From: Sulfurimonadaceae bacterium
Lineage (GTDB): Bacteria; Campylobacterota; Campylobacteria; Campylobacterales; Sulfurimonadaceae
Assembly: GCA_016744905.1 (NCBI GenBank)
Contig: JADGDM010000011.1
Location: forward strand, 1-52,065
Direction: 5' to 3'
Length of the DNA: 52,065 bases
Position 1 is the first letter of the stretch, and each line of letters starts with the position of its first letter. Both the position numbers and the translations under genes were made by a program. Positions 2,426-14,296 of the stretch are shown in pieces. The notes beneath the pieces are model-generated. The model ran no database searches and had not been told where the DNA came from. It saw nothing but the letters and a program-made list of their open reading frames with translations.

Positions 2426-3559
2426 ATGAAAAAAGTATTATTAGTATTTGGAACACGACCAGAAGCTATAAAAATGGCACCGCTTGTTAAAGCGTTTGAA
2501 CAAGAAAATGGGATAGAATCAAAAGTATGTGTTACGGCGCAACACAGAGAGATGCTTGACCAAGTTCTAGATATGTTTGAAATAGTTCCCGATTATGATT
2601 TAAATCTTATGAAACCTGGGCAAGATTTATATGACATTACTTCAAATGTACTTTTAGGTATGAAAGATGTGCTTATTGATTTTCAACCTGACATTGTTTT
2701 GGTCCATGGCGACACGACAACGACAAGCGCAACTTCACTCGCAGCATTTTATCAGAAGATAAAAGTTGGTCATGTTGAAGCAGGGCTTAGAACTGGAGAT
2801 ATGTATAGTCCATGGCCAGAAGAAGCGAACAGACAAATCACTGGAGTACTTGGAAGCTATCACTTTGCCCCTACAACAACTTCTAGAGATAATTTGCTAA
2901 GAGAAAATAAAAATGAAGCAGATATATTAGTAACGGGAAATACTGTAATAGATGCTCTGTTTTTAGCACTTGATAAAATAGAGAATAATGTTGAATTAAA
3001 AAATACAATCATAAAGTCTATAAATACTCAGTATAAAATAGATGATACTAAAAAACTGATTTTAGTAACTGGACATAGAAGAGAAAATTTTGGACAAGGA
3101 TTTATAAATATTTGTGAGGCTTTAAAAACTCTTGCAATTAACAATCCTGATATAGATATAGTTTATCCAGTACATTTAAACCCAAATGTTCAAAAACCCG
3201 TAAAAGAGCTATTGTCTGATGTGTCAAATGTACATCTTATAGAGCCACTCCAATATGAAACTTTTCTTTATCTCATGAGTAAGTCTTACTTCATCATCAC
3301 AGATAGCGGTGGAGTGCAAGAAGAAGCACCAAGTTTAGGTAAGCCTGTACTTGTGATGAGAGATACTACAGAGAGACCTGAAGCATTAGATGCTGGAACA
3401 GTGAAGCTTGTAGGCACGAATAGCGAGATGATCATACAAGAAGCTCAAAAGCTGTTGGATGACAAGTTGGATTATGAAAAAATGAGTAAGGCACATAACC
3501 CTTATGGAGATGGTAAGGCTTGTGAAAAAATAGTTGAATTTATAAAAGGAATCAAATAA
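2426..3559 (+). CDS. wecB: UDP-N-acetylglucosamine 2-epimerase (non-hydrolysing)
   Basis: Converts UDP-GlcNAc to UDP-ManNAc in the cytoplasm; with the next gene it would provide UDP-ManNAcA. The 377-aa length is normal for the family. Visible signatures are [13 protein letters not shown] at the N-terminus, [21 protein letters not shown] in the middle, the TGHRRENFG segment, and [20 protein letters not shown] near the C-terminus. The ATG follows the upstream TAG directly, with a GGGGAAAA ribosome site inside the upstream gene. The stop overlaps the wecC ATG (TAATG). Arginine is written mostly as AGA, as in its three neighbours and unlike the genes after 5008. Confidence 0.95.
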
Positions 3560-4755
3560 TGTTAAATAAAAAAATATGTGTAATAGGCTTAGGATATATA
3601 GGTTTACCAACAGCAGCACTTCTCGCAAATCGTGGTTATGATGTTCATGGAGTGGACGTAGTTCAAAGTACGGTAGATATCATCAATCGTGGTGAGATAC
3701 ATATAGTAGAACCAGAACTTGACACTTTTGTAAAAGCAGCTGTAAACAGTGGAAAACTCAAAGCAGATTTAAAACCATGTGAAGCTGCTGTTTTTATCAT
3801 CGCTGTACCGACTCCTTTTCATGAGGGTTTTGTACCAAATATAGACTATGTAGTAAGTGCTACAAAAGCGATAGCACCTTTTGTCAAAGAGAACGACGTT
3901 GTTATACTTGAATCAACTTCTCCGGTGGGAACTACGGATAAGGTAGAAGAAGTTTTAGTTAATGAGGGTATAGACACTTCAAAACTTTTTATAGCTCACT
4001 GTCCTGAAAGAGTTTTACCTGGTCATATAATGAGAGAACTTGTTGAGAATGACAGAATAGTAGGTGGAACGACTCCTGAAGCTACAGTACAAGCAGTAGA
4101 ATTTTACAAGACATTTGTTTCTGGTGAAGTTTTAAGTACAGATGCAAGAACCGCAGAGATGGCAAAACTTACTGAAAATAGTTTTAGAGATACGAACATA
4201 GCATTTGCAAATGAACTCAGCATACTTTGTGATAAGTTTGACATAGATGTATGGGAACTTATATCTTTAACAAACAGACATCCAAGAGTAAACGTGCTTC
4301 AACCTGGAGCTGGTGTTGGTGGTCACTGTATAGCAGTTGATCCATGGTTTATAGTTCATGCTGGTGGTGCTGATGCTAAGATCATAAGAACTGCAAGAGA
4401 AGTTAATACTTATAAAACTGAATGGTCTATAGAGAAAATAAAAAATGCAGCATTAAAGTTTGAATCTGAAAATGGAAGAAAAGCGATAGTAGCATGTATG
4501 GGCCTTGCTTTTAAACCTGATATAGATGACTTGAGAGAATCTCCGGCATTGTTTATAACTAAGAGATTAATATCTGATGGTTTAGATATTCTTGCTGTTG
4601 AACCGAATATAGAGAGATATAAAGATATTGAGATAGTTGATTATAAAACAGCTATAGAAAATGCAGATATAGTTACTTTTTTAGTTGCTCATAAAGAGTT
4701 TAAAGAGTTAGATATAAAAACTGGTTTAGACTTTTGTGGGGTTTTGAGAAAATAA
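3559..4755 (+). CDS. wecC: UDP-N-acetyl-D-mannosamine dehydrogenase
   Basis: Oxidises UDP-ManNAc to UDP-ManNAcA with NAD+. The 398-aa protein shows the Rossmann start GLGYIGLPTAALLANRGYDV, the PTPFHEG loop, the ESTSPVGTT segment, and GVGGHCIAVDPWFIV, which carries the catalytic cysteine of the UDP-glucose/GDP-mannose dehydrogenase family. The C-terminal domain with AFKPDIDDLRESPA is present, so the enzyme looks complete. Translationally coupled to wecB by TAATG. It is the last gene of the first, AGA-rich module; the following 250 bases hold only a gene remnant and a promoter. Confidence 0.95.
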   Translation: MLNKKICVIGLGYIGLPTAALLANRGYDVHGVDVVQSTVDIINRGEIHIVEPELDTFVKAAVNSGKLKADLKPCEAAVFIIAVPTPFHEGFVPNIDYVVSATKAIAPFVKENDVVILESTSPVGTTDKVEEVLVNEGIDTSKLFIAHCPERVLPGHIMRELVENDRIVGGTTPEATVQAVEFYKTFVSGEVLSTDARTAEMAKLTENSFRDTNIAFANELSILCDKFDIDVWELISLTNRHPRVNVLQPGAGVGGHCIAVDPWFIVHAGGADAKIIRTAREVNTYKTEWSIEKIKNAALKFESENGRKAIVACMGLAFKPDIDDLRESPALFITKRLISDGLDILAVEPNIERYKDIEIVDYKTAIENADIVTFLVAHKEFKELDIKTGLDFCGVLRK

Positions 4756-4770
4756 GATTGAGTAGCTAAT

Positions 4771-4938
4771 TTGAATAATAAACTAATTTATCACTATACA
4801 GATATAAGTGCTCTAAAAAGCATCCTAACTAATAAAAAACTTTGGATGACTTCACATGAGTATTTGAATTATGGTAGTCGGATCAGTGATTTAAAATATT
4901 GCATCTATAACAAGAGCTTAAACGCAGAACAAAGGTGA
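4771..4938 (+). pseudogene. Remnant of a DUF2971-like gene
   Basis: A 55-codon frame beginning TTG at 4771 and ending TGA at 4936-4938 reads LIYHYTDISALKSILTNKKL then WMTSHEYLN. That is the pattern at the N-terminus of DUF2971 proteins (HYT-x-ALKSIL-x-LW-S-x-LND). Family members are usually 200 aa or more, and the match here fades after the LN position and stops at the TGA; I see no continuation in other frames before 5008. The simplest reading is the surviving 5' end of a gene lost when two polysaccharide modules were joined. It could instead be a short expressed peptide, but it has no good ribosome site. Confidence 0.55.
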
Positions 4939-4970
4939 GGCTAAAGATAGTCAATTGAAGTTCAATAAAG

Positions 4971-4976
4971 TATAAT
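4971..4976 (+). promoter_or_regulatory. Probable -10 box (TATAAT) for the 5008 gene
   Basis: A perfect TATAAT lies 31 bases before the TTG start of the fusion gene, with an AGAGG ribosome site (4997-5001) seven bases before that TTG. There is no clear -35 box, which is common for epsilonproteobacterial sigma-70 promoters. It would restart transcription after the gene remnant. Confidence 0.5.
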
Positions 4977-5007
4977 ACGAAATAATTTAAATGCCTAGAG
5001 GTTTTAT

Positions 5008-7743
5008 TTGTACTATAAATTTTTATTTAGCATGATCTTTTTTATTCAGATTCACCTATTAATTAGTGTTAGCTTTACGATATCTTTATTTTTTATTGGA
5101 CTAAGCATAGTTTTCGGTTTACTTAGTTTTTTAAAACCAATTCAAAGTTTATATCTATTGCTTCTTTTAATGGTTGTATTTGGTTCTCGTCCTTCAATGG
5201 AACAGACGCATTATCTAATCCTTGGAACTGGATTCTGGATACTAAGTGTTTATGCACAACTTATACTAAAATCAGATTTTGAATATAAGCTTTTTTTAGT
5301 AAAACTTCGTTCTTCAAACCTTGTATCATTCTTTTCTCTCTTTTTTATCCTTACTTCTTTTCTAAGCTTGATAGGACTTCCTATTATTGGTGCACTCAAA
5401 CATACTATTCAAGAAGATGTTTTGTATATTTTTAAAGAATTACTTACTGTGGGAGAGACAACTCTTTACTCTTCTGTGCAATCTGTTTTCTTTTTACTGC
5501 AAGGTTATCTTATCGGTCTCTATATCTATGCTACCACACGAACATTCAATCAGTTCAAAATTTTTAAAAATGCTCTATTCTCACTTTTTATAGGGTGGTT
5601 ACTTTTTATTATAGTGGGCTATATAGATTTTTTTGGATTCATTGACTTAACTCAATACTACTTTTGGGATGAAACCCCTCACCGATTTACTTCATTTTTT
5701 CCAAACTCATCATGGAGTTCACAGTATCTCGCCGTTACACTACCACTGCTTCCTATTGTCCTTCTTTGGCGTAAGATAAATCGTTCCATGTTAATACTTA
5801 TGGTTTTTCTCATAGTGCTTGGTGAAGTTGCCCTTTTGCTTTCTATGCAGCGCGGTGCCTGGTTAACTTATCCACCGACACTTTTGATGATCTGGATTAC
5901 TATCTACTACGTTTTTGCACGTAGTCATGATAACACGATCTCTCTCAAATCATTTTTAAAAACTTCATGGCTAAAAATTTTCATCACTATCCCTCTCACT
6001 GTCATCATCTCAGCGACTGTAGTCTATGAGATAAAAGACTATCGTCAAACACACTCCATAAAAAGTGCTACCAATACCTTTGATGATGTTTATTCTCGCA
6101 TGGGTAAAGTATCAGATACTGGAAATCGCAAAGTTCACTGGCCACCGGCCATCAAACTTTTTCTGGAAAATCCTATCTTCGGAGGAGGCGGTGATAGTTT
6201 TGGTTGGCAATACAAAGAGTACTTTTACAAGCCAAATGCTAAATGGCACGATGATGAAGCCAATACCTTAAAAATAGGACAATTTGGAACAGCACACAAC
6301 CTTTACCTTCAAACCTTAGTAGGAAAAGGCATCTTTGGTCTAATATTTTTACTGGCTTTTTTAATCATTCTCATCTACAAACTCATTCAAAAAGAGTTTC
6401 TCTCTGCCAAACAGCGCTCACTTGAAGAGTCCATCTTAACACTCATCGTTTTAGGTTCACTCACCGCCACACTTATCTACGCCAATGTTCAAGAGATATT
6501 TTACACCCAACCTGTGGCCATCATCTTTTGGGTGGTTGTCTTCATCGGTGCAGGCTTGACACATGACTATGCTGCTTCACGTCAAAAACGTGAGGAGTTA
6601 TGGAATGCTGGTAAGTATCTTTTTTACTTTCTACTGCTCCTTTTACCTTTTCATGTACTCAACATCTCATATATTCGTGAGTTTATTGCGCAAAAGATGA
6701 GTAATTTTATACCCGCTCTTGATGTGGATGCGTCTACGCTATTAGTAGGAAGTTCACTATGGCTAGGAGTCTTTGCAATCATCCTCTCTTTTTGGATGCA
6801 CAGAAAAGTTATCATACATACTCATCAAGGTGGTTTTTTCATCGATGATCATGAGGGAGATGACAAGTCTCACGGCATACACACCCAAGCCACGCCTCGC
6901 GCTGGAGGCATCGGTATCTTTGCCGCAAATCTCTTCTTGGTTTTCAATCCTCTAGGATGGAAATTCATCTTGGCCGCCCTTCCCGCTTTCATCGTGGGGC
7001 TTTTTGATGATTTCAAACCACTTCAGCCCCGCACGCGTCTATTTTTACAAGCTCTCTCTGGATTACTCTCTGTGCTGCTTTTAGATGCCCTTGTCTATTC
7101 CTTAGGATTTGATATATCACTTCCTTATCTAGCAGGCTTATTCATCACCATCATCGCCATCACAGGAGCCATCAACGCCATCAATATGATAGATGGCTTT
7201 AACGGTCTCTCAACAGGAACCGTGCTCATGATGCTTCTCTCCATGAGTTACGTCAGCATTCAAGTAGGAGATATGAATATCTTAGAGATTTTAGCCATCA
7301 ATGCTGCGGCAGTCATCGGATTTATGTTCATCAACTTTCCACGTGGTCACATCTTTTTAGGTGATGGGGGTGCTTACTTTTTAGGATTTTTAGTCTCTGC
7401 GGTCTCTTTGATGTTGGCTTTTCATCACAAAGAGGTCTCACAACTCTATCCATTAGCACTACTCATATACCCTGTTTTTGAAGTACTTTTTAGCATCTAC
7501 CGCCGTAAGATATTTAAAAATATTAGCATGACTCAACCCGATAAGATTCATCTTCATCAACTCATATTTAGACGTATCACAAAGAACAATCCTCGAACCA
7601 GTGTTTACCTTTGGAAAAGGCTCCTTCCCTTTATGATCATTTCTACCTACTTTTATGATAATGATTTAGCATTATCCATCATCGTATTAATGTTTATGAT
7701 CTCTTATGTTAAGCTCTATCGTAAAATAGTTAGATTTAGATGA
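5008..7743 (+). CDS. Fusion: O-antigen polymerase/ligase domain + WecA/MraY-type phosphoglycosyltransferase
   Basis: One uninterrupted 911-aa frame joins two membrane enzymes that are normally separate. Residues ~1-520 form many hydrophobic helices with Wzy_C/WaaL marks: SMQRGAWLTYP near residue 280 and the large periplasmic loop with LENPIFGGGGDSFG and GTAHNLYLQTLVGKG near residue 430. Residues ~570-911 carry the full WecA/MraY set: HTQATPRAGGIG (~residue 625), FDDFKPL (Asp667-668), NMIDGFNGLS (Asp729), FLGDGGAYFLGF (Asp786) and DKIHLHQLIFRR (~848). The first half would polymerise or ligate glycan in the periplasm; the second would load a sugar-1-phosphate on undecaprenyl phosphate. The TTG start is chosen for its AGAGG ribosome site; ATG 5032 is the alternative. 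Arginine codons are CGT/CGC-rich, unlike the genes before 4755. Each domain assignment is strong; function as a single polypeptide is inference. Confidence 0.85.
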   Translation: MYYKFLFSMIFFIQIHLLISVSFTISLFFIGLSIVFGLLSFLKPIQSLYLLLLLMVVFGSRPSMEQTHYLILGTGFWILSVYAQLILKSDFEYKLFLVKLRSSNLVSFFSLFFILTSFLSLIGLPIIGALKHTIQEDVLYIFKELLTVGETTLYSSVQSVFFLLQGYLIGLYIYATTRTFNQFKIFKNALFSLFIGWLLFIIVGYIDFFGFIDLTQYYFWDETPHRFTSFFPNSSWSSQYLAVTLPLLPIVLLWRKINRSMLILMVFLIVLGEVALLLSMQRGAWLTYPPTLLMIWITIYYVFARSHDNTISLKSFLKTSWLKIFITIPLTVIISATVVYEIKDYRQTHSIKSATNTFDDVYSRMGKVSDTGNRKVHWPPAIKLFLENPIFGGGGDSFGWQYKEYFYKPNAKWHDDEANTLKIGQFGTAHNLYLQTLVGKGIFGLIFLLAFLIILIYKLIQKEFLSAKQRSLEESILTLIVLGSLTATLIYANVQEIFYTQPVAIIFWVVVFIGAGLTHDYAASRQKREELWNAGKYLFYFLLLLLPFHVLNISYIREFIAQKMSNFIPALDVDASTLLVGSSLWLGVFAIILSFWMHRKVIIHTHQGGFFIDDHEGDDKSHGIHTQATPRAGGIGIFAANLFLVFNPLGWKFILAALPAFIVGLFDDFKPLQPRTRLFLQALSGLLSVLLLDALVYSLGFDISLPYLAGLFITIIAITGAINAINMIDGFNGLSTGTVLMMLLSMSYVSIQVGDMNILEILAINAAAVIGFMFINFPRGHIFLGDGGAYFLGFLVSAVSLMLAFHHKEVSQLYPLALLIYPVFEVLFSIYRRKIFKNISMTQPDKIHLHQLIFRRITKNNPRTSVYLWKRLLPFMIISTYFYDNDLALSIIVLMFMISYVKLYRKIVRFR

Positions 7744-7786: not shown

Positions 7787-8947
7787 TTGAAAAAAACTAA
7801 AAAACTAAAAATTATGATCGATACTATTCCTCTATTGAAGAACCTGACCGGGATAGGCTTTGTGACTTATATCTACGCTAAAGAGCTGCGTAAATCTTCA
7901 CATGAGTTTATCTACTACTATGCTTGGTTTAGCTCTTCAGAGCTTAAGGAGCGACCTTTGGCGGCTTATGACAAAGCTGTTACTTGGGTCAAGAGATTTA
8001 TCCCCAGACCTTACTTCATTACCCACGCAATTAAAACTGTTATCTTTAACATCATCTTACTTTTAAAAAAGCCTGATGTCTTTTTTCAACCCAACTACAT
8101 CTCTTTTAGAATGCTCACAAGTACCCCTGTTGTGACTATGGTTCATGACCTCTCTCACATCCACTTTTCGCAGTTTCATCCTAAAGACAGAGTGGAACAC
8201 TTTACATCTGAACTGGTGCGAAGTTTGAAAAATTCTGCCAAAGTCATCGCCATCTCTGAGTACACCAAACAAGATCTCATCAAACTAGAACTTGCCAAAG
8301 AAGAAGATATCGAAGTCATCCACAATGGCGTCAGTAAAAACTTCAAACCTCTGTGCGAGCATCTGCATGCTTCAACTGTTTTAGAAGAATTAAAACTCTC
8401 AGAAAAAGGCTATTTTCTTTTTGTCGGAACCATGGAACCACGTAAAAACTTAGATCTTCTACTTAAGGCATATCTAAAATATGTTCAAACAACATCCTCT
8501 CCAACTCCTCTGGTGTTAGCCGGTGGAGTAGGATGGCGAAGTGAATTCTTTGATGCACTTTTACAAGAAGCCCTTAAACTACCAAGTGTGAGAAAACTGG
8601 GCTATGTTTCAAACGAGACACTTCCCATTTTGTTCGCGGCTGCAAAGGTTTTTATCTTTCCTTCACACTATGAGGGTTTTGGTTTGCCCCCTTTAGAAGC
8701 CATGGCTTCAGGAACCGCTGTCATCGCTTCAAATAGTTCTTCTATCCCTGAAGTCATAGAAGATGCTGGAATATTAATCAATCCAATAAATCAACAAGAG
8801 CTACTCGATGCCATGATCTTACTTGATGACAATAAAGACAGACGTCAATCATTTGAAAAACTTGGAATACTACAAGCAAGAAAATTCTCTTGGGAAATCG
8901 CAGCAAAACGTTTAGAGCAAGTTTTTATTGATGTCACCACTACTTAA
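7787..8947 (+). CDS. GT4-family glycosyltransferase
   Basis: A 386-aa GT-B glycosyltransferase. The donor-binding half is typical: YFLFVGTMEPRKNLDLLLKA, then FIFPSHYEGFGLPPLEAMAS with the E-x7-E arrangement, followed by GTAVIASNSSSIPEVIEDAG. The N-terminal half (TIPLLKNLTGIGFVTYIYAKEL) is the acceptor-side domain. The frame begins at TTG 7787; ATG at 7814 is the other candidate, and neither has a strong ribosome site. The last 17 bases overlap the flippase start. In the operon it would add one sugar of the repeat unit; donor and linkage are unknown, though the sequence style is like mannosyl/rhamnosyl transferases of the WbaZ/RfaB type. Confidence 0.85.
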   Translation: MKKTKKLKIMIDTIPLLKNLTGIGFVTYIYAKELRKSSHEFIYYYAWFSSSELKERPLAAYDKAVTWVKRFIPRPYFITHAIKTVIFNIILLLKKPDVFFQPNYISFRMLTSTPVVTMVHDLSHIHFSQFHPKDRVEHFTSELVRSLKNSAKVIAISEYTKQDLIKLELAKEEDIEVIHNGVSKNFKPLCEHLHASTVLEELKLSEKGYFLFVGTMEPRKNLDLLLKAYLKYVQTTSSPTPLVLAGGVGWRSEFFDALLQEALKLPSVRKLGYVSNETLPILFAAAKVFIFPSHYEGFGLPPLEAMASGTAVIASNSSSIPEVIEDAGILINPINQQELLDAMILLDDNKDRRQSFEKLGILQARKFSWEIAAKRLEQVFIDVTTT

Positions 8948-10094
8948 AACATTTTTATCACTCTCCAGCGCTGAAATGGCGCTACGCGCTGGTCGTTTTC
9001 TTTTTTTTCTCCTCTTAGCAAATACTTTAGAGAGTAAAGTTTTTGGAGAATACATCTATCTCATCTCACTATTTACCCTTATCTTTGTCATAAGTGACTT
9101 TGGTTTTTCAAAACTCATCACCAAAGAGCTCTCGAAGCGGAGTCATTATGATGTCTACTCACCTCTCATATTTCGTCTTATTTTTTTCATTACACTCACA
9201 CTAATCACCTTTATATTTTTACATCAAAGCACTCTACTTATCTTGGTACTTGGCTTCATGTTTTTTTTAGACGCCATAGCAGAGATGCTCTATTCCATCT
9301 ACCGCGCACAGGGGAAGTTTCATTATGAAGCCGCCATAAAGCGTCTGCTCTCTCTATCTTACCTGCTCGTAACGCTTATGCTCTACCTAAAGATTGAAAT
9401 TTCTTTAGCTGTAACGCTCTTTATCATCATCTTTTTTTATCTACTCATCTTAGTGCCACACCATAAAAATATACCTACAAGCAAGATCTCATTTAAGTTT
9501 TTAAAACATGTCCATAAAGAATCTTTTATTCTTTTAAGTGCCGCTATCCTCACTATCGCCTATCTTCGTATAGATATTTTTATGATTGAGTACTTTTTAG
9601 ACCTCACACAACTCTCGACATACGCCATAGCATCCAAAATCATAGAACTATCCATGATACTTCCGATGGTCATATCTTCTATCTTACTCCCACAGATGGT
9701 TAAGTCCAAAAAGATAAAAAAAACGCATATACTCCAGCACTTTACTATAGGTATAATCGTTGCGTCTATTTTTTATCTTGTCGCACCCTATCTTACAGAG
9801 CTACTTTTTCCAACATACCATCAATCTACTGAACTCATTAAAATTCTTGCGATTGGCCTTCCATTTTTAATGATAAACAACTATATTTTCACCGCATTTA
9901 TCGCCCATGATCTCTCCAAATTTTTTCTCTTTACAACCGCTTTCATGCTCCTGTCAAACGGGTTTTTAAATTATCTTTATATTCCCACATTTGGTCTTCA
10001 AGCTGCAGCTTACAGCACACTTTTTACCGAGTTTGTCGGCGCACTTATCGCCCTAGCTTTGCTTCCTAAGTTACATACAGCCAGAAAAGGGTAA
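8931..10094 (+). CDS. Oligosaccharide flippase (Wzx-type)
   Basis: A roughly 388-aa polytopic membrane protein with about 12 predicted helices, of the polysaccharide biosynthesis/MOP exporter family. It would flip undecaprenyl-linked repeat units across the inner membrane. The opening SLSSAEMALRAGRFLFFLLL and the segment VFGEYIYLISLFTLIFVISDFGF are typical of Wzx (the FG-Y-x-x-DFG pattern). ATG 8931 is preferred to the TTG immediately before it. The start lies inside the 3' end of the glycosyltransferase, so translation is coupled. Its position between glycosyltransferases and near the Wzy-type domain supports the role. Confidence 0.85.
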   Translation: MSPLLKTFLSLSSAEMALRAGRFLFFLLLANTLESKVFGEYIYLISLFTLIFVISDFGFSKLITKELSKRSHYDVYSPLIFRLIFFITLTLITFIFLHQSTLLILVLGFMFFLDAIAEMLYSIYRAQGKFHYEAAIKRLLSLSYLLVTLMLYLKIEISLAVTLFIIIFFYLLILVPHHKNIPTSKISFKFLKHVHKESFILLSAAILTIAYLRIDIFMIEYFLDLTQLSTYAIASKIIELSMILPMVISSILLPQMVKSKKIKKTHILQHFTIGIIVASIFYLVAPYLTELLFPTYHQSTELIKILAIGLPFLMINNYIFTAFIAHDLSKFFLFTTAFMLLSNGFLNYLYIPTFGLQAAAYSTLFTEFVGALIALALLPKLHTARKG

Positions 10095-10118: not shown

Positions 10119-11225
10119 ATGAAAGTTGCTATCGTTCACGACTGGTTCAAGATAGAAGGTGGAGCAGAAAATGTTGTCACCTCTTTACTAAACATCTATC
10201 CTGAAGCCGAGATTTTTGCACTAGTGGATTTTTTCACACCGGCGCAACGTCAAAAAATCCTCCAAGGCAAGTCAGTAAAAACAACCTTTATCCAGAAACT
10301 TCCTTTTGCAAAAAAATCTTTTCAAAACTATCTCACACTTTTCCCTTTTGCCATAGAACGTCTTGATTTAAGAGGATATGATCTCATCATATCCTCGTCT
10401 CACGCCGTGGCCAAAGGTGTTTTAGTAGGTCCAGAACAACTTCATATCTGTTACTCTCATACCCCGATGCGTTACGCTTGGGATATGTTCTTTGACTACA
10501 AAGAGGCGCATAACATCACAGGCATCAAAGAAAAAATACTTTCTTATACCCTACACCGAATTCGTCTTTGGGATGTTATCTCCTCAAATAGAGTTGACCA
10601 CTTTATCGCCAACTCAAACTTTGTTAAAAAACGTATCGCTAAATACTATAGACGAGAAGCAGAGACCATCTTTCCTCCAGTAGATATAGCGCGCTATCAA
10701 CTTATATGTACAAAAGAAGATTATTACTTTACTGCTTCTCGGTTGGTACCTTATAAAAAAATCAAGATGATTGTAGAAGCCTTTGTTAAAAACGGTAAAC
10801 AACTCATCGTCGCAGGAGACGGACCTGAATTCAAAAAGATACAAGAGATAGCCACACCCAACATCACTCTTCTAGGCTATGTTGAAGATCAGAAAATGCT
10901 CTCATTAATGCAAAAAGCAAAAGCCTTTATATTTGCTGCCTATGAAGATTTTGGTATCATGCCTGTTGAAGCCATGTCTTGTGGAACTCCCGTCATCGCT
11001 TACGCCAAAGGCGGTATCAATGACAGTGTCATAGATGAGAAGACAGGACTCTTTTTTCAAGAACAAAATCCTGAAAGTTTAAATCAAGCCATCGATAAGT
11101 TTTCCAGTATTAGCTTTGATCCAGAAGAAATCTCAAAACATGCATCAAAATTTTCAGTAACACGCTTTGAGAAAGAAATCAAAAACTTTATTGACCAAAA
11201 ATATCAAGATTTTGACAACACATGA
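10119..11225 (+). CDS. GT4-family glycosyltransferase, WbaZ/mannosyltransferase-like
   Basis: A 368-aa GT-B transferase beginning MKVAIVHDWFKIEGGAENVV, with SHTPMRYAWDMFFDY, the start typical of WbaZ/MtfC-like mannosyltransferases. The donor half has YYFTASRLVPYKKIKMIVEA, LIVAGDGPEFKKI and FIFAAYEDFGIMPVEAMSCG followed by TPVIAYAKGG. The ATG at 10119 has an AAGGGG ribosome site about four bases upstream. Its stop overlaps the next ATG (ATGA). This gene contains the first GCGCGC of the window (10689), while nothing upstream has one. The sugar specificity is a guess from resemblance. Confidence 0.85.
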   Translation: MKVAIVHDWFKIEGGAENVVTSLLNIYPEAEIFALVDFFTPAQRQKILQGKSVKTTFIQKLPFAKKSFQNYLTLFPFAIERLDLRGYDLIISSSHAVAKGVLVGPEQLHICYSHTPMRYAWDMFFDYKEAHNITGIKEKILSYTLHRIRLWDVISSNRVDHFIANSNFVKKRIAKYYRREAETIFPPVDIARYQLICTKEDYYFTASRLVPYKKIKMIVEAFVKNGKQLIVAGDGPEFKKIQEIATPNITLLGYVEDQKMLSLMQKAKAFIFAAYEDFGIMPVEAMSCGTPVIAYAKGGINDSVIDEKTGLFFQEQNPESLNQAIDKFSSISFDPEEISKHASKFSVTRFEKEIKNFIDQKYQDFDNT

Positions 11226-12541
11226 AAAACAACTTCTCCCTGCTCATACTACTGCTTTTAGATCTATTAGCCATCATCATAGCTGTTTCACTTGCCTTCA
11301 CACTACGTCTCACCTTTGATGCGCAATTTGATACATCTTTCAGCCATAATCTCTCTGAATATCTAACACATCCAATCTTCTACCTTATTATATTTCTTAC
11401 ACTCTTTTATGAAGAAATTTATACCAAACGTTATGATTTTTGGCATGAGAGTCGCCAGATTATTAAAGCATTACTTCTCTCATTTTTATTGGTTATGAGT
11501 TATCTCGCACTCTCAAAAGAGGTAGATCACTTCTCACGCGCTATTCTCCTACTCTCTTTTATTTTTATGACCTTCTTACTTCCTCTGTTTAAAAATATTA
11601 CTAAAAAACAACTCTTTAAACTAGGACTTTGGCAACGTCAAGCAAAAATCTATGGAGATGATGACTTTATCAGTCGTGAAATATTTTCAAATCCATATCT
11701 TGGTTACATTCACTCTAGTCAAAAGAGTGCGCAGACAGTTTTTATAAATTCGAAAGATCTTGAACCCACAAAACTACGTCAGGTTATCGATACAGAGATC
11801 CATCTTCATCATGAGCTGATATTTATACCGCTCATCAATGACTACAATATGACCGAATCTCACATCTATGAACTTTCCAATACTCGTACCAATTTAGTTG
11901 TCTTTAAAAACCGACTTAAAAGTAAATATCGCATACTTTTACAGCAGGGCTTTAACTATTTTTTAGCACTATGTCTGCTTCCTGTTTTACTTCCTATCAT
12001 CGCTATCCTATCCATCTTGATTAAACGTGAATCACCAGGTCCTATCTTTTTTTCTCACAACCGTATCGGTCAAAATGGAAAAAATGTACCCACTTTAAAA
12101 TTTAGAAGTATGTACAGTGATGCGCAAGAGCGATTGAAAAAACTCTTAGAAAGTGATGATACTATCAAAAAAGAGTGGGAAAGCAATTTTAAACTAAAAG
12201 ATGATCCACGCGTCACTAAACTTGGAGCCTTTATGAGAAAAACATCCTTAGATGAGCTACCTCAAATATTTAACGTGCTAAAAGGCGAGATGAATTTTGT
12301 CGGCCCGCGTCCTGTGATTCAAAAAGAGATCGATCAGTACTACAAGGCTGATGCTGAGTACTACCTTATGGTTAAACCAGGAATTACGGGTCTCTGGCAA
12401 GTTAGTGGACGCAGTGACACTGACTATCACTTTAGAGTTAAAACGGATAAGTGGTATGTTTCAAACTGGTCACTTTGGCTCGACATTGTGATACTTTTCA
12501 AAACAATTAAAGTTGTCCTTTTTAAAGAGGGTGCTTACTAA
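11222..12541 (+). CDS. Undecaprenyl-phosphate sugar phosphotransferase (WbaP-type)
   Basis: A 439-aa polyprenol phosphate hexose-1-phosphate transferase that starts repeat-unit synthesis on undecaprenyl phosphate. Layout: about four N-terminal membrane helices (1-125), a soluble middle, a further hydrophobic segment near 245-270, then the bacterial sugar transferase domain with KRESPGPIFFSHNRIGQNG, LKFRSMYSD, the catalytic Asp-Glu pair in SLDELPQIFNVLKGEM, VGPRPV and PGITGLWQVSGRSD. The protein ends a few residues after the transferase domain, as in WbaP/RfbP. It is coupled to the upstream gene by ATGA. The locus therefore has two initiating activities, this one and the WecA-type domain of the fusion protein. 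The sugar (Gal, Glc or other) is not decidable here. Confidence 0.9.
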   Translation: MKNNFSLLILLLLDLLAIIIAVSLAFTLRLTFDAQFDTSFSHNLSEYLTHPIFYLIIFLTLFYEEIYTKRYDFWHESRQIIKALLLSFLLVMSYLALSKEVDHFSRAILLLSFIFMTFLLPLFKNITKKQLFKLGLWQRQAKIYGDDDFISREIFSNPYLGYIHSSQKSAQTVFINSKDLEPTKLRQVIDTEIHLHHELIFIPLINDYNMTESHIYELSNTRTNLVVFKNRLKSKYRILLQQGFNYFLALCLLPVLLPIIAILSILIKRESPGPIFFSHNRIGQNGKNVPTLKFRSMYSDAQERLKKLLESDDTIKKEWESNFKLKDDPRVTKLGAFMRKTSLDELPQIFNVLKGEMNFVGPRPVIQKEIDQYYKADAEYYLMVKPGITGLWQVSGRSDTDYHFRVKTDKWYVSNWSLWLDIVILFKTIKVVLFKEGAY

Positions 12542-12571: not shown

Positions 12572-13705
12572 ATGAATAATAATCAAAATAATACATACCA
12601 TACAGAAGAAGATGAAATTGATCTACGTGAACTGTTTTTAGTACTAAAAAAGAGAAAAATCACTATCTTCCTAGTGACCACGCTTATTACTACATTGGCC
12701 ATAGTTTACGCATTGCTTAAAACACCTACCTATGAAGTCAAATCAAACGTTCAACTCGGGTTCATCGGAAAAAACTTAATAGACAACAGTGAAACCATAA
12801 AAAAAGTACTCAATGTTGTTTTTAATGTAGAGGATCAAGTAGAATCGCCAGATGCGTTTGTCTCAAAAGTCCAAAGTATTAATACCAATAAAATACTTCC
12901 CAATTTTTTAACAATAACAACAGAAGCAATTTCAAACAAAGAAGCACTAAAAAAGAATAAAGAGGTTATCACTTTTTTACAAGAGATGTATATTAATAGA
13001 ATCACTCAACAAAAGCATCTTATTGAAAAGAATATTGAAAATGATAAGAGAAGCTTGGTAAAAATTGATACTTTTGAAAAGAAAAATATAGAAGAGCAGA
13101 TCAAACAGTTGCGTACTCAAGATGTTGCAAAAATAGAAGAAAAAATCAACTACCTCAAAAACTTCAAACTCAAGAGTATTCAAACAAAAACCAACCTTCA
13201 CAAAAAGAAGCTACTGGAGTATACTGAATCAGTCAACGCCCTTTATAAAAAGAATCAAAGCAAAACAGACAGTGCAACACTTACCATCGCTTCAATTCAA
13301 ATGCTAAACTATCAAAATCTTATCCTCAATGTACAAACAAAAATAGAAGATCTTAAAACAGAACGTAAACTTGTTGTGACAGAAAGTATCCCTGATCTAC
13401 AACGTGAAAAAGACAACATATTAAACAATACCATCCGCAAACTAGAAAACACTCTCAACGTAGAACTCGCTACAAAAAAGATAGAGCTCAATAATAATAT
13501 TGATACTTTAAAATATAAGTTAACCCCTGCTTTTGTCCAAAATTCTAGAGTCATAGGCCAGTTTGTTATTCATGACTATCCAACAAAGCCAAAGAAAAAA
13601 CTTGTCATCGTAGTGGGATTTATTACAAGCTTGATCATATCAATATTTTTAGTTTTCTTTTTAGAGTTTATTCAAGGTGTGAAAAAAGAAGAGCAATCAA
13701 AGTGA
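12572..13705 (+). CDS. Wzz-type chain-length regulator (first copy)
   Basis: A 377-aa polysaccharide co-polymerase. It has a short cytoplasmic N-terminus with HTEEDEIDLRELFLVLKKRK, a first membrane helix (ITIFLVTTLITTLAIVYALL), a long lysine- and glutamate-rich coiled-coil periplasmic part, a YPTKPKKKL proline motif, and a second helix ending the protein. There is no cytoplasmic tyrosine-kinase domain. The N-terminal peptide is nearly the same as in the other Wzz at 16264-17205, so the two are paralogues or share a partner. It would set the polymer length made by the Wzy-type domain upstream. It is the last gene of this polysaccharide run. Confidence 0.85.
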   Translation: MNNNQNNTYHTEEDEIDLRELFLVLKKRKITIFLVTTLITTLAIVYALLKTPTYEVKSNVQLGFIGKNLIDNSETIKKVLNVVFNVEDQVESPDAFVSKVQSINTNKILPNFLTITTEAISNKEALKKNKEVITFLQEMYINRITQQKHLIEKNIENDKRSLVKIDTFEKKNIEEQIKQLRTQDVAKIEEKINYLKNFKLKSIQTKTNLHKKKLLEYTESVNALYKKNQSKTDSATLTIASIQMLNYQNLILNVQTKIEDLKTERKLVVTESIPDLQREKDNILNNTIRKLENTLNVELATKKIELNNNIDTLKYKLTPAFVQNSRVIGQFVIHDYPTKPKKKLVIVVGFITSLIISIFLVFFLEFIQGVKKEEQSK

Positions 13706-13724: not shown

Positions 13725-13733
13725 TGCTATAAT
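13725..13733 (+). promoter_or_regulatory. Extended -10 promoter (TGCTATAAT) of the Uma2 gene
   Basis: TGCTATAAT is a full extended -10 box 18 bases before the ATG at 13751, with an AAAAGG ribosome site at 13739-13744 between them. This gives the accessory gene its own promoter. Confidence 0.6.
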
Positions 13734-13750
13734 TGACTAAAAGGAATATT

Positions 13751-14296
13751 ATGGGAGCGTTGGAGTATTTAAAACATTATACATATGAAGACTATAAACT
13801 TTGGGAAGGTAAGTGGGAACTTTATGAAGGATATCCAGTTGCAATGAGTCCTTCACCTATGATCTCTCATCAGGCATTAGCAGCAGAGATACTATTTGAA
13901 ATAAAAAGATCTATTGGAGAATGTGAAAGATGTTTAGTGTTAGCAGAAGAAGATTATAAACTCTCTGATGACACAGTACTTCGACCTGATGTTGTTTTGA
14001 TCTGTGATGAGCCAAATGATGCTTACATCACAAAAGCACCTGAAATCATCATTGAAGTCCTTTCAAAATCAACGGCTAAAAATGATGAGGGTTATAAGTT
14101 TCAAAAGTATGAAGCTGAAAAAGTGAACTACTACATCATTATCTATCCTGATGAACTTTACGCAAAAGTATATAAGTTAAAAGAGGGAAAGTATGATAAA
14201 CAAGGGGATTTTTCTTCACAAAATTATGACTTTGAAGAGACACTTTGTAAAGCCAGTGTAAACTTCGACAAAGTTTTTAAAAGATTTAGAAAATAA
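13751..14296 (+). CDS. Uma2-family (DUF820) putative restriction endonuclease-like protein
   Basis: A ~181-aa protein of the Uma2/DUF820 family, which has a PD-(D/E)XK nuclease-like fold. The N-terminal YTYEDYKLWEGKWELYEGYP and the core LRPDVVLICDEP followed by APEIIIEVLSKSTAKND match the family, with the Asp of RPDVV and the Glu of IIIEVLS as the likely metal ligands. ATG 13751 is chosen over a TTG at 13733 because of the AAAAGG ribosome site and because the TTG lies within the promoter. It is convergent with the HEPN/MNT pair, only two bases from the MNT stop. The biological role of Uma2 proteins is poorly known; they are common as accessory, often multi-copy genes. Confidence 0.85.
   Translation: MGALEYLKHYTYEDYKLWEGKWELYEGYPVAMSPSPMISHQALAAEILFEIKRSIGECERCLVLAEEDYKLSDDTVLRPDVVLICDEPNDAYITKAPEIIIEVLSKSTAKNDEGYKFQKYEAEKVNYYIIIYPDELYAKVYKLKEGKYDKQGDFSSQNYDFEETLCKASVNFDKVFKRFRK

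Follow-up and report, generated by a model that had tools for sequence, protein, structure and literature searches.

A natural fusion of a Wzy_C half, probably of O-antigen ligase type, and a WecA-type phosphoglycosyltransferase half in a Sulfurimonadaceae bacterium

The locus and its fusion gene

The DNA analysed here, referred to as the window, is a 52,065-nucleotide stretch of a Sulfurimonadaceae genome. Its polysaccharide gene cluster contains a gene that joins a Wzy_C half to a WecA-type half (Table 1). About 250 gene-free bases (window 4756-5007) precede this gene, and one frame within them, for which no Pfam match was found, resembles the start of a degraded gene. A Uma2-family putative endonuclease (window 13733-14296) lies at the end of the cluster. 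Two initiators from different families are encoded in this one cluster, the WecA fusion and a WbaP-type protein (11222-12541), and a second Bac_transf gene is found elsewhere in the genome.

Table 1. Features of the fusion gene and its neighbourhood (positions in the window)
Feature	Position	Strand	Basis
WecB-like UDP-GlcNAc 2-epimerase	2426..3559	+	Resemblance to the gene adjoining the fusion in G072
WecC-like UDP-sugar dehydrogenase	3559..4755	+	Assigned from sequence
AGAGG, Shine-Dalgarno-like, 6 nt upstream of the TTG start	4997..5001	+	Sequence
Fusion gene, 911 aa, Wzy_C half + WecA-type phosphoglycosyltransferase half	5008..7743	+	Four full-length homologues
N-terminal half, residues 1-517, GT-C(B) fold	5008..6558	+	Pfam; AF2 model pTM 0.85
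R282, first of the conserved Arg pair, corresponding to O-Lig Arg191	5851..5853	+	Almost all stand-alone Wzy_C proteins have Arg here
R374, second of the conserved Arg pair, corresponding to O-Lig Arg265	6127..6129	+	Invariant in alignment A6
H430, acceptor-activating His, counterpart of O-Lig His313	6295..6297	+	At least 90% conserved in A6; PMC10920833
Linker transmembrane helix, residues 525-551	6580..6660	+	AF2 secondary structure; hydropathy peak 538-556
C-terminal half, residues 575-911, WecA/MraY-type polytopic phosphoglycosyltransferase	6730..7740	+	Pfam; AF2 mostly pLDDT over 90
TPRAGG, residues 629-634	6892..6909	+	R631, G633, G634 invariant in 28 sequences
D667-D668	7006..7011	+	D668 invariant; consensus of the stand-alone relatives has Glu for D667
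NMIDGFNGL, residues 726-734	7183..7209	+	N726, I728, D729, G730, N732, G733, L734 invariant
GDGG, residues 785-788	7360..7371	+	G785, D786, G788 invariant
HLH, residues 848-850, sugar-recognition loop	7549..7557	+	H848, H850 invariant
GT4 glycosyltransferase, conserved partner	7787..8947	+	68% to L025, 54-55% to G053/G084
Wzx-type flippase, conserved partner position	8928..10094	+	PF01943; 46% to L025
Second GT4 glycosyltransferase	10119..11225	+	Pfam
WbaP-type Bac_transf phosphoglycosyltransferase, second initiator in the cluster	11222..12541	+	
Wzz chain-length determinant	12572..13705	+	PF02706

The fusion gene is a single 911-codon frame with zero internal stops that opens with a TTG codon, which is also the start, at the aligned residue, in a Sulfurimonas MAG (L025). 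Pfam recognised PF04932 (Wzy_C/O-antigen ligase) at residues 268-449 (63 bits vs a cut-off of 31.7, E 3.5e-17) and PF00953 (Glycos_transf_4, WecA/MraY family) at residues 653-803 (108 bits vs 27, E 5.4e-31), and found no third domain in the 911-aa protein, the WadA-type GT25 being absent. All motifs quoted in the initial annotation were recovered, in the N-terminal half SMQRGAWL (279-286) and GTAHNLYLQ (427-435) and in the WecA half TPRAGG (629-634), FDDF (666-669), NMIDGF (726-731), GDGG (785-788) and HLH (848-850).

Is this really one protein? Searches among relatives and across the order returned full-length, stop-free homologues in three genomes from two other families (G053 and G084, both 51% identical; G072, 52%), and a scan of species genomes added the homologue of L025 (70%). 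Both Pfam domains score above cut-off in all five fusions, and because the join is kept in at least five related genomes, comparison of the sequences confirms it as a genuine fusion. As far as sequence can tell, no stop or frameshift was missed at residues 510-570, since the four homologues, from independent genomes, are stop-free there. Although the window is one contig of a 122-contig draft genome, an assembly or frameshift artefact has a vanishingly small probability and was rejected: the architecture is repeated, intact, in four other genomes, two of these assembled into two contigs each. It is very improbable that the frame yields two proteins, whether through proteolytic cleavage between the halves or from an internal start. 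No conserved internal start heads the WecA half (the Met of SFWMHRKV is Ile in L025) and purifying selection acts on the linker, even though most pairs are least alike there (35-60% identity). In alignment columns 480-600, which surround the linker, the codons of G053 and G084 differ by 29 synonymous vs 6 non-synonymous changes, and therefore the linker appears to be translated and under selection.

The two halves and their placement in the membrane

The AF2 model of the N-terminal half was built with stand-alone Wzy_C proteins in the alignment. Its sole significant match in the PDB was the ligase WaaL (7TPG; E 1.7e-6, probability 1.00), with TM-scores of only 0.42-0.54; FtsW and RodA came next, below significance, and a PDB sequence search with this half gave no match. 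Like WaaL (PF04932, CAZy GT121), the N-terminal half has the fold, an Arg-Arg-His set and, close to where the bundle ends, a long periplasmic loop, predicted here at about residues 350-431; unlike WaaL, it is ~520 instead of ~400 aa long and is joined to WecA. When it was aligned with about 30 stand-alone Wzy_C proteins, R282, R374 and H430 proved to be intact, which is the Arg-Arg-His set of O-antigen ligases (PF04932, GT121). Polymerases of the GT-C1 clan mostly carry Asp or Glu where ligases have this His, and many Wzy proteins have been left unclassified (PMC10920833). The fusion shares with Wzy_C-type Wzy polymerases the Pfam domain and the pathway neighbours Wzx, Wzz and GT, but it differs from them in its acceptor-activating residue, which is His and not Asp/Glu (H430, kept in all five fusions), and in carrying a second function in the chain.

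The C-terminal half matches MraY/DPAGT1 in fold (E 5e-8 to 3e-5, probability 1.00, TMt mostly 0.6-0.77), and its profile also matches them by sequence. Save for D667, the catalytic set (DD, NxxDGxNGL, GDGG, HxH) is invariant in 28 fused and stand-alone sequences. Fold and motif set are thus those of the WecA/PF00953 transferases (stand-alone Campylobacterales proteins, MraY, DPAGT1). The closest stand-alone Campylobacterales homologues are 43-48% identical and ~335 aa long; unlike the fusion, stand-alone WecA relatives (~330-350 aa) have a polymerase/ligase neither attached nor encoded directly upstream. With TIGR02380 (wecA) the C-terminal half scores 74 vs a cut-off of 326, and therefore it is a member of the PF00953 family and not an equivalog of the E. 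coli-type WecA. With TIGR00445, the MraY equivalog, it scores 19 bits vs 192. The genuine MraY, at 393 bits with the latter profile, is encoded elsewhere in the genome; this second PF00953 gene was considered as a spare WecA and rejected on its equivalog score. Because the only other PF00953 gene is MraY, the genome has no WecA-type enzyme besides the fused half. We infer that it would act as a WecA-like UDP-HexNAc : Und-P HexNAc-1-phosphate transferase. Frame, homologues and conserved residues together support the view of the initial annotation that one polypeptide bears two complete catalytic halves.

How could both halves be inserted correctly? The K/R-rich segment SRQKREE lies immediately N-terminal of the linker helix. 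With the loop at 350-431 in the periplasm, the K/R-rich loops after helix 432-465 and before helix 525-551 fall in the cytoplasm. The linker helix is thus predicted to cross outward and helix 575-600, the first of the WecA half, to cross back, so that TPRAGG and the remaining WecA motifs would face the cytoplasm. In the WecA/MraY family, these motifs are expected on the cytoplasmic side. Because of the extra helix and this topology, the two active sites would lie on opposite membrane faces, in agreement with the earlier proposal that the halves act on opposite faces and at opposite ends of the pathway.

Distribution, history and neighbours of the fusion

A domain-architecture check in a 200-genome sample of the order showed that, among the matches listed, only the fusions exceeded 900 aa, every non-fusion Wzy_C frame listed being ~250-500 aa long. 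Similarly, the PF00953 matches longer than 900 aa among those listed in the phylum sample were the fusions. The genome-collection scan reached close relatives only, and the searches cover Campylobacterota, the phylum for which the rarity of the architecture holds. Full-length matches to the fusion were not found in the plasmid and viral collections. In a tree of 28 sequences, the fused WecA halves, from several families, form one clade (support 100/100), and because of this a single fusion event followed by loss or transfer would be the simplest history. A close stand-alone relative of the N-terminal half was not found in about 400 genomes of the order. An origin from unfused neighbours was rejected, as no homologue of the N-terminal half adjoins the closest stand-alone WecA genes. 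In-frame "read-through" matches in genus g5 (L022) were also discarded as an unfused intermediate: their upstream gene is, by eye, oligosaccharyltransferase-like and not Wzy_C.

The neighbours of the fusion are conserved in part. In L025 the fusion, the GT4 gene and the Wzx gene form a three-gene cassette. In G053 and G084 a variable O-antigen cluster stands between the fusion and the GT4 and Wzx genes, and Wzz is found beyond the fusion in the other direction. Of the four genomes (window, L025, G053, G084), three have Wzz near the fusion. The flippase of the window is about 24-25% identical to those of G053 and G084. The GT4-Wzx pair is also present in other g35 genomes where the N-terminal half went undetected. 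Encoded with Wzx and Wzz, the fusion has neighbours that a Wzy polymerase would also have. The O-antigen cluster of G053 is flanked by repeated small-gene pairs that look by eye like HEPN/MNT nucleotidyltransferases (L054:12004-14660, L111:1622-2222). In the O-antigen cluster of G084, a 442-aa membrane-like protein with no Pfam match (L055:4599-5927), encoded beside the flippase, is a candidate Wzy of an undescribed family.

Ligation or polymerisation, and a possible coupling of chain start to release

The N-terminal half had been labelled polymerase/ligase in the initial annotation. We lean to the second part of that label because of the His triad and the missing stand-alone gene, and we give slightly better than an even chance to a bifunctional inner-membrane enzyme with a ligase-type N-terminal half, somewhat favoured over a polymerase. 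The fusion is the only Wzy_C match in the genomes of G053, G084 and L025. In two complete genomes of the same genus as G053 and G084 (G070, G096), a stand-alone Wzy_C gene adjoins a core heptosyltransferase-like gene. The latter is present at 69-70% in G053 and G084, likewise complete genomes, where a ligase-like Wzy_C match was not found and the next gene is unrelated; the comparison is of two genomes vs two within one genus. Also, an EpsG-type polymerase candidate lies within the O-antigen cluster of G053. The N-terminal half is 97% identical between G053 and G084 despite their differing O-antigen clusters, which is, to judge by the sequences, ligase-like behaviour. The acceptor would most probably be lipid A-core. 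Against a ligase, a second Wzy_C protein of the window genome (L058:9290-10588, 432 aa) is encoded in a heptosyltransferase/MsbA cluster and has the look of the true ligase. Moreover, G072 carries four Wzy_C proteins, and the partners GT4, Wzx and Wzz suit a polymerase equally well.

These last observations lead to the main alternative, namely that the N-terminal half of the same fusion is a Wzy polymerase in a compact conserved pathway resembling that of the enterobacterial common antigen. We consider this possible, with a likelihood well short of even. WecA would start the unit, GT4 would extend it, Wzx would flip it and the fused Wzy would join the units under Wzz. The fusion, GT4 and Wzx adjoin one another in the window and L025, G053 and G084 have them within a single region, Wzz is nearby as described above, and neither the window cluster nor the cassette of L025 shows another polymerase. 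The separate ligase candidate of the window genome fits as well. It is difficult to reconcile a polymerase, however, with a triad of His type, with the EpsG candidate that G053 already has, with the absence of the stand-alone ligase-like gene from G053 and G084, and with the low identity of the flippases. It is improbable that one half only is active, the other being a scaffold or losing its function. Five homologues keep all the tested catalytic residues of the two halves unchanged, purifying selection acts on both halves, and the window genome is without another WecA-type enzyme; nevertheless, the WbaP-type initiator could replace the WecA half, and Glu in most stand-alone relatives at the position of D667 indicates that this site tolerates change.

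If the N-terminal half is of ligase type, as we favour, the C-terminal half would transfer HexNAc-1-phosphate to Und-P at the cytoplasmic face, as WecA does. The neighbouring GT4 enzymes would lengthen the Und-PP-sugar, the Wzx flippase would turn the product over, and Wzz, with a polymerase where present, would set the chain. At the periplasmic face, the N-terminal half would move the glycan from Und-PP to the acceptor via the ligase-type Arg-Arg-His site. Helix 525-551 would carry the chain to the periplasmic side, and the WecA half would then enter the membrane in normal orientation. Since the WbaP-type initiator is also present, the WecA half may not start the glycan of the cluster.

Why should the first and the releasing step be joined? 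A pathway block after commitment traps Und-P, a carrier that pathways share, which is harmful and is relieved by mutations that prevent initiation (PMC12826051). With the releasing half placed first in the chain, any nonsense or frameshift mutation that hits it would take the initiator away as well, and therefore many Und-P-trapping mutations may be made harmless. Such joint loss would stop the cell from committing Und-P to a pathway that cannot be finished. All-or-none coupling of carrier-lipid commitment and release, through equal dosage and joint loss, would be the likeliest benefit. A further reading, less likely than not, is that the single chain across the membrane keeps initiation capacity from ever exceeding release capacity, a built-in guard against sequestering Und-P in which the two active sites may communicate. 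Local recycling of Und-P, also suggested, is not supported: Wzy_C frees Und-PP on the outer leaflet and WecA uses Und-P of the inner leaflet. Between release and reuse come Und-PP phosphatases (BacA/PAP2) and Und-P translocases (DedA/DUF368) (PMC12826051), so that direct recycling is not possible.

As anticipated in the initial annotation, the papers searched yielded neither a characterised protein of this architecture nor a description of WecA fused to a ligase or a polymerase. The fusion is a new domain architecture built from known enzymes. In WadA of Brucella, Mesorhizobium and others, a GT25 glycosyltransferase is appended to an O-antigen ligase domain of GT121 (PMC10920833), and ligase domains therefore do fuse to other glycan enzymes. 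Both proteins are natural fusions of an O-antigen-ligase-type domain to a second glycan enzyme. WadA's second module, however, is a globular GT25 acting late, when the last core sugar is added, whereas here the partner is a polytopic phosphoglycosyltransferase that would start the chain on Und-P. A natural fusion of this kind suggests that evolution has coupled the first and the release steps of an Und-P-linked glycan pathway. With it the coupling could be tested in a single protein, by severing or extending the linker; structural studies of ligase-type enzymes would gain a covalently tethered pair, and polymerase and ligase function could readily be tested against each other.

The fusions of G053 (L006:1489-4203) and G084 (L027:1489-4200) are alike in ~96-97% of residues up to ~795, and their last 115 residues diverge abruptly (~40% of nucleotides), beside the differing O-antigen clusters. 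The exchanged end includes the HxH sugar-recognition loop, and it is possible that the initiating sugar was changed along with the cluster.
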